From an uncultured Aquimarina sp. (GTDB lineage: Bacteria > Bacteroidota > Bacteroidia > Flavobacteriales > Flavobacteriaceae): a stretch of DNA of 64,000 bases. The DNA is taken from the NCBI GenBank assembly GCA_947495425.1, contig CANLYR010000008.1, positions 62,001-126,000 on the forward strand, in the 5' to 3' direction. Under the pieces are notes generated by a model that ran no database searches, was not told the origin of the DNA, and saw nothing but the letters and a program-made list of their open reading frames with translations. Position 1 is the stretch's first letter, and every line of letters starts with the position of its first letter. Positions 24,103 to 25,263 of this stretch are shown here, piece by piece. Made by a program: the position numbers and the translations under genes.

Positions 24103-24110
24103 TAACTTTG
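24103..24110 (+). promoter_or_regulatory. -7 promoter element for the crp-type gene
   Basis: TAACTTTG fits TAnnTTTG and lies 26 nt before the GTG start at 24136, supporting that start. No good -33 element is visible. Confidence 0.45.
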
Positions 24111-24135: not shown

Positions 24136-24699
24136 GTGCAGAAAAAACTAAGAAATCATATAGAAGAAATAGTATCGTTGACCAATCATGAGTTTTCATT
24201 TGTACTTTCTCATTTTACTACTAATAAAGCTAAAAAGCACGAATTATTGATTCAAGAAGGTAAAAGTGTACCCTATATTTACTTTGTTGTCTCTGGGCTT
24301 TTGAAATTGATATTTACAGATGAATCAGGAAAAGAACATATTATTTCTTTTGCGATGGAAGATTGGTGGGAAAGTGATTTTCAAGCTTTTTATACCCAAA
24401 CTAAAGCAACAATGTCATTGCAATGCATTGAAGATACTGATGTTTTCTGCCTTTCATTGAAAGAGTATCACAAGTTATGTGCAGGTCTTCAGAAAATGGA
24501 GCATTTTTTTCTAAAAAAAGCAAATGGAGGTCACATAGGGTCGCAGCAACAGATACTGTCATTTTTAACATTGAATGCTAAAGATCGATACGAACATTTA
24601 CTTAAACGATACCCTTCATTGCTACAACGCGTATCCAAAACTCAACTTGCTTCTTACCTGGGAGTTTCTCGTGAAACTCTAAGCCGACTTATTACTTAA
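24136..24699 (+). CDS. Crp/Fnr family transcriptional regulator with CRP-like recognition helix
   Basis: A 187-aa regulator: N-terminal cyclic-nucleotide-binding-type beta roll (EGKSVPYIYFVVSGLLKLIFTDESGKEHIISFAMEDWWESDFQAF, about 40-85), a dimerisation helix, and a C-terminal winged helix. There are no Fnr-type cysteine clusters, so it is not an obvious 4Fe-4S sensor. The recognition helix reads VSRETLSRL (about 177-185), matching the SRETxxR that E. coli CRP uses to read TGTGA. An exact TGTGA-N6-TCACA site lies 24 nt after the stop. The GTG start follows a -7 element. The effector is unknown; the cAMP-contact residues are not obviously conserved. Confidence 0.9.
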   Translation: MQKKLRNHIEEIVSLTNHEFSFVLSHFTTNKAKKHELLIQEGKSVPYIYFVVSGLLKLIFTDESGKEHIISFAMEDWWESDFQAFYTQTKATMSLQCIEDTDVFCLSLKEYHKLCAGLQKMEHFFLKKANGGHIGSQQQILSFLTLNAKDRYEHLLKRYPSLLQRVSKTQLASYLGVSRETLSRLIT

Positions 24700-24722
24700 T
24701 TTTTTCTGTAGTCATTCAAAAT

Positions 24723-24738
24723 TGTGAGGTTTATCACA
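24723..24738. promoter_or_regulatory. CRP-like operator TGTGA-N6-TCACA upstream of ridA-like gene
   Basis: TGTGAGGTTTATCACA is an exact match to the classic CRP half-site arrangement. It lies between the Crp-family gene and the exported RidA-like gene. A near-consensus -7 (CATCTTTG, 24760-24767) places the palindrome centre about 40-45 nt before the likely start of transcription, the position used by class II activators. Confidence 0.65.
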
Positions 24739-24792
24739 CTCAAATATATGTGCTGTTATCATCTTTGTAAGCTATGAATTAAAACTATAATC

Positions 24793-25263
24793 ATGATGAA
24801 AATCGCAAAGATTTTAGTAATCACAGTATTAACATTTGCGTCATCGATGGCACAAAATAAAAAAGAAAAACAGATGGAAAAACGAGTAATAAATCCATGG
24901 AAATGGCAGGACGCGCGTAACTACGTACAAGCTGTAGAGGCAAAAAACGTAGAAAGTACGCTTTACATTTCTGGGCAGACAGCAATTAGTGCAGAAGGAG
25001 CGTCAAGCACTGCCGATATGAAAACCCAATTAATTGAAGCAATACAAAATTTGGAACAAGTAGTCAATGAGGCAGGCTACGAATGCAAAAATATCGTACG
25101 GTTAAATATCTATACCACCTCTAATGATGAGCTTTTGCGATGTTTTGAGGTATTTCAGGATTGGGTTGCAAAACACGATATGAAACAAGCACTTACATTG
25201 ATAGAGGTACAAAGTCTCTTTGAGACCTTGACAATAGAATTGGAAGCTACTGTTGTCAAATAA
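24793..25263 (+). CDS. Exported RidA/YjgF-family protein without the catalytic arginine
   Basis: A 156-aa RidA-fold protein with an N-terminal signal peptide (MMKIAKILVITVLTFASSMAQ), so probably periplasmic, unlike the cytoplasmic imine deaminase RidA. The fold is recognisable from STLYISGQTAISAEGASSTADMKTQLIEAIQNLEQVVNEAGYECKNIVRLNIYTT. The stretch that in RidA reads pARsxv and holds the catalytic Arg is here QALTLIEVQSL, with no arginine, so imine deaminase activity is doubtful. An internal ATG (MEKRVINPWKW) would give a cytoplasmic form. A CRP-like site precedes it. Confidence 0.85.
   Translation: MMKIAKILVITVLTFASSMAQNKKEKQMEKRVINPWKWQDARNYVQAVEAKNVESTLYISGQTAISAEGASSTADMKTQLIEAIQNLEQVVNEAGYECKNIVRLNIYTTSNDELLRCFEVFQDWVAKHDMKQALTLIEVQSLFETLTIELEATVVK

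Follow-up and report, generated by a model that had tools for sequence, protein, structure and literature searches.

A conserved CRP/FNR-type regulator and rid gene pair with a candidate class II-like operator in an uncultured Aquimarina sp. and other Bacteroidota

In a 64,000-nucleotide stretch of DNA from an uncultured Aquimarina sp. (hereafter the window, meaning the whole stretch analyzed), a gene for a CRP/FNR-type regulator is followed by an exact TGTGA-N6-TCACA palindrome and then by a gene for a Rid-family protein, which raises the question of whether the three form a local unit in which the regulator controls its neighbor through the palindrome. All features discussed lie on the forward strand. 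The regulator gene (24136..24699) begins with GTG and encodes 187 amino acids, described by Pfam, AlphaFold and PDB matches as a CRP/FNR-type protein in which the recognition helix comes last and no wing follows it. The reading frame ends in VSRETLSRLIT, so the VSRETLSRL helix named in a preliminary description of this DNA is indeed present at the C-terminus; its SRETLSR portion (24667..24687) aligns with S179-R185 of E. coli CRP. The candidate operator, TGTGAGGTTTATCACA, occupies 24723..24738 as had been described, with a distance of 23 nt from the regulator stop in place of the 24 nt given earlier. The Rid-family protein (24793..25263) has 156 amino acids.

The palindrome within its own genome says little. 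Near-matches to TGTGA-N6-TCACA with at most two mismatches occur in the window at chance level (29 seen vs. 28.6 expected), leaving the exact match alone to stand out there. The 4.77-Mb genome holds two exact palindromes, the second of them inside an ORF (L002), and 88 matches with at most one mismatch vs. 99 for the reversed control pattern; the scan for TGTGAN6TCACA beside other genes that had been proposed at the outset thus yielded no enrichment. A general CRP-like regulon was looked for in this genome by pattern and profile searches, from which all genome-wide counts derive, and was not found. Since a lone exact site beside a lone regulator is no proof, the case rests on comparison.

An orthologue scan in which each species was represented by one genome yielded 80 loci whose regulators are 64-78% identical (L033-L112), and a search within the genus added five extra orthologues at 66-68% identity (L004-L008), of which L004 equals L105 over the compared region; all were collected by sequence similarity to the window regulator, a procedure that favors the same clade. 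The orthologous loci span Flavobacteriaceae, Chitinophagaceae, Sphingobacteriaceae, Spirosomataceae, Fulvivirgaceae, Hymenobacteraceae and others. A Rid gene of the same kind lies downstream of the regulator in 79 loci, and 77 of these 79 pairs have an exact GTGA-N6-TCAC in the 250 bp that follow the regulator, the remaining two having one mismatch. Orthologous pairs lacking the palindrome had been named in advance as grounds for abandoning the idea, and the site passed that test. Three orthologues with no adjoining Rid gene (L044, L055, L070) also lack the site-plus-box arrangement, and in two Mucilaginibacter loci (L101, L102) the site and its spacing persist with a different Rid protein in place of the usual one. 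The regulator and the Rid protein have correlated pairwise identities (r 0.54), which fits co-inheritance but equally plain common descent, and was therefore given no weight. One locus (L049) has a further copy of the regulator (MSVNLREHIEKIVPLTDDEF...) 3' of the Rid gene. Autoregulation through the site was considered and is not supported, as none of the 85 regulator upstream regions (250 bp) contains an exact GTGA-N6-TCAC.

A promoter profile built from 29 one-site promoters gave one match in the Aquimarina genome (E 9e-11, the next at 0.2) and a single strong match in each of the six same-genus genomes that carry an orthologue (G000, G002, G004, G019, G026, G030), with no strong match in the other same-genus genomes searched, which have no orthologue. 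Run against 248 sampled genomes from the phylum, it returned six further matches past E 1e-4, five of them between a regulator and a Rid gene and the sixth, the weakest, in an unrelated ORF. By these searches the candidate site is present once per genome, and only where the regulator occurs.

The regulator itself belongs to the CRP/FNR superfamily by Pfam and NCBIfam, by its AlphaFold model and by Foldseek matches, having the cNMP-binding-like beta roll, dimer helix and C-terminal HTH of that superfamily. It matches cNMP_binding (PF00027) above the cut-off (E 2e-11) and HTH_Crp_2 just under it (E 3e-5), and it falls far short of the NCBIfam equivalog for CRP proper (PRK11753, 33 bits vs. a cut-off of 266). 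The AlphaFold model (pLDDT 93) ends in a helix at 179-186, and the best PDB fold matches found by Foldseek are 3dn7, FNR and CRP. The first of these, a cyclic nucleotide binding regulatory protein of Cytophaga hutchinsonii with a similarly short chain of 194 residues, is also the nearest solved structure by sequence (E 8e-27); unlike the window regulator it has the helix TPEYLSE, a helix of the kind seen in the paralogues that have no TGTGA site.

In E. coli CRP, which shares the fold and the TGTGA half-sites with an N6 spacer, residues R180, E181 and R185 contact the DNA. Their equivalents are invariant in all 99 regulators compared (86 orthologues and 13 members of a clade at 50% identity), vs. 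P, K or T at position 180 in 11 paralogues of 31-39% identity, eight of which have K at position 185; none of these 11 has a TGTGA site beside it. Helix and site thus co-vary across clades, which bears out the earlier suggestion that an SRETxxR helix and a TGTGA site fit each other, and the protein combines CRP-type DNA recognition residues with a putative CRP-type operator. The likeness would extend to DNA recognition, not to the signal, because the cAMP pocket is altered: the contacts G71, E72, R82 and S83 of CRP are S, D, A and T in the window regulator, unlike E. coli CRP in the changes of E72 to D and R82 to A, and A replaces R82 in 85 of 86 orthologues. The T127/S128 positions fall in alignment gaps, a placement that is uncertain. 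With the residues that hold the phosphate changed, cAMP is unlikely as the signal, and the regulator would respond to something else.

The promoter geometry was read by the rule from Flavobacterium psychrophilum, in which the TAnnTTTG box occupies -12 to -5 (PMC9723704). The degenerate -7 box of the rid promoter, CATCTTTG (24760..24767), has its TTTG at -8..-5 by this rule, which predicts a transcription start at 24772 rather than at 24774 as first proposed. The palindrome center then falls at a predicted -41.5, inside the earlier estimate of about -40 to -45, and, given that start, the site would lie over the upstream promoter element with the same center as in class II CRP-dependent promoters. 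When a site followed by TTTG was searched for with two mismatches allowed in all, the distance from site start to TTTG start was 41 or 42 in 82 of 86 loci, which share ancestry and are not independent counts, vs. 19 of 1720 when these stretches were Markov-shuffled; none of the 11 paralogue loci has such an arrangement at 41 or 42. Two adjacent spacings thus occur, not one, and by the flavobacterial rule the center would lie at -41.5 in the window and at -42.5 in most relatives, which have the spacing of 42.

The box is one base off consensus, as had been described, having C in place of T at -12, and the TTTG at -33 is absent. Both features recur among the related promoters: of 82, only three have T at -12, 80 have A at -11 and 79 have TTTG, with C at -12 in 57 overall and TTTG at the -33 distance in a single one. 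The -33 element is sometimes absent from flavobacterial promoters. In the predicted promoter of the regulator gene the -7 box is a full TAnnTTTG, TAACTTTG (24103..24110; consensus from PMC9723704). Such a uniformly weak promoter combined with a uniformly placed site has the look expected of an activator-dependent promoter.

Two GTGA-N6-TCAC sites are present in 37 loci, the additional one exactly 23 bp upstream. The one-site and two-site forms cluster strongly on the regulator tree (four changes vs. 27 in shuffles), and the window locus has the one-site form. In two-site loci (e.g., L086, L088 and L054) the upstream site tends to be similar, in its spacer as well, to the reverse-complemented downstream site, as in the pair GTGACAAACCTCAC / GTGAGGTTTGTCA at the constant 23 bp.

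Taken together, comparison of the sequences supports the pairing of regulator and Rid gene, the site, its fixed distance from TTTG, its co-variation with the recognition helix and its single occurrence per genome. Corrections aside, the preliminary reading holds wherever sequence alone could check it. We consider it very probable that the locus is a one-regulator, one-target switch, in which a CRP/FNR-type class II activator serves a dedicated rid promoter. The 187-residue regulator, whose own predicted promoter has a normal -7 box and lacks the site, would bind as a dimer at the TGTGA-N6-TCACA just 3' of its gene; bound at -41.5, it would recruit RNA polymerase carrying the housekeeping sigma factor, compensating for a rid promoter that lacks both the T at -12 and the TTTG at -33.

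Among other readings, the one that fares best, although we hold it improbable, is a repressor-operator pair in which the bound regulator obstructs polymerase at the rid promoter and comes off in response to a signal. Sites near -41.5 can repress too. The site does lie close to the rid promoter, CRP/FNR proteins are capable of repression, and BT4338, from the same phylum, acts both ways (PMC6989115). Repression, however, does not call for a site restricted to two neighboring spacings from the -7 box, and a repressor should face a good promoter, whereas the rid promoter lacks the -12 T and the -33 element; furthermore, the second site in 37 loci lies 23 bp upstream, not downstream over the start. 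A role for the inverted repeat in the regulator transcript, as a terminator or an RNA hairpin and not as a protein site, is considerably less probable still: the repeat comes just 3' of the regulator stop and a 5-bp stem is conceivable, but no terminator-like site was detected, the repeat folds no better than shuffles (z 0.63), and a stem accounts for neither the fixed TTTG distance, the conserved spacer bases nor the co-variation with the recognition helix. That the regulator acts elsewhere and the palindrome adjoins it fortuitously, as the chance frequency of CRP-like near-matches in window and genome might suggest, is refuted almost to certainty by the site in 77 of 79 pairs and the one profile match per genome, found only with the regulator.

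The presumed target of this putative class II activator was first described as an exported RidA-like protein, and each half of that description stands in part. Membership of the Rid family is clear (PF01042, E 4e-18, 65.9 bits vs. a cut-off of 27.3), whereas the score for the RidA subfamily of imine deaminases falls below its cut-off (TIGR00004, 58 bits vs. 106). In PDB alignments the Glu is present and the position of the RidA catalytic Arg105 is L; the Glu is invariant in 79 of 79 orthologues and the Arg position is T, L, S, V, A or M in all 79, so that the resemblance to RidA holds for the fold and not for the activity. Rid subfamilies without this residue are presumed to be inactive in imine hydrolysis (PMC4433059). 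In keeping the Glu and lacking the catalytic Arg, the target is like the Rid4-Rid7 group (PMC4433059), and with T, L or S at the Arg position it is unlike Rid4/Rid7, which have Trp, and nearer to the "variable" Rid5/Rid6.

As for export, a signal-peptide-like, hydrophobic N-terminus, MMKIAKILVITVLTFASSMA (24793..24852), is predicted here and also in relatives, but such an extension is found in just 23 of 78 loci, the window included, and its state changes about 13 times on the regulator tree. Most Rid proteins without the extension start at the methionine of the motif MEKR..NPW, which corresponds in the window to an internal ATG (24874..24876, MEKRVINPW). Of the 23 extended forms, 22 retain this methionine and one, L071, has lost it; with the internal start so retained it is possible that two Rid products arise, one from the upstream and one from the internal start. 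Some short forms have an apparent remnant of a signal peptide end in the 5' leader (NTVPALARTQ in L077, APVLARIQ in L062).

Within the genus the regulator is patchily distributed, with an orthologue in six of the 34 genomes listed. The window regulator has 78% identity to Chitinophaga proteins vs. 66-68% to those of five members of its own genus, and these five form a supported group on the tree, apart from it. The patchy occurrence and the closer similarity to Chitinophaga than to its own genus suggest horizontal transfer of the regulator-rid unit.

A local CRP/FNR-type regulator with a neighboring target and a class II-like site is an already known kind of system; for this conserved regulator-rid pair, no report was found in the open-access literature searched. 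Unlike E. coli CRP, the window regulator has no wing after its recognition helix, and it would be dedicated to one neighboring gene whose promoter has a box of the Bacteroidota sigma factor type. Closer in taxonomy is BT4338 (Cur) of Bacteroides thetaiotaomicron, also a CRP-family protein of this phylum, which is apparently not cAMP-responsive and has its site ahead of the -7 box (PMC6989115), two traits in which the window regulator would resemble it; BT4338 differs in having a global regulon and the motif wwwTATGTTnTAnAACATAwww (PMC3878776). The statement in the preliminary description that CRP-type operators are little described in this phylum needs correcting to the extent that those of BT4338, with a different motif, have been described.

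Related layouts occur with other targets. The 50%-identity clade (L009-L021) has the same RETLSR helix, and most of its loci carry GTGA-N6-TCAC ahead of another target, by inspection DoxX-like, tautomerase-like or dehydrogenase-like; here the full site lies mostly 56.5 bp from TTTG, and a two-site variant exists. In three further genomes (L152, L160, L161) a distant, winged CRP/FNR regulator of about 24% identity, with the helix TTREVISR, is followed right 3' of its stop by TGTGA-N6-TCACA and then by a TTTG box, ahead of a different gene with a signal-peptide-like start. The recurrence of this layout in both sets raises the prospect, to which we give an even chance, of a general Bacteroidota design in which many local CRP/FNR regulators each have, directly 3' of their own gene, a dedicated activator-dependent promoter that combines a site near -41.5 with an impaired TTTG box.

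Activator-dependent promoters that are well understood are few in Bacteroidota, and the pair offers some 80 natural variants of what is probably one. Because regulator, site and target adjoin one another, the pair allows class II activation by way of the Bacteroidota sigma factor to be tested directly. Moreover, the signal to which its regulator responds may give a clue to what Rid proteins without the catalytic arginine do.
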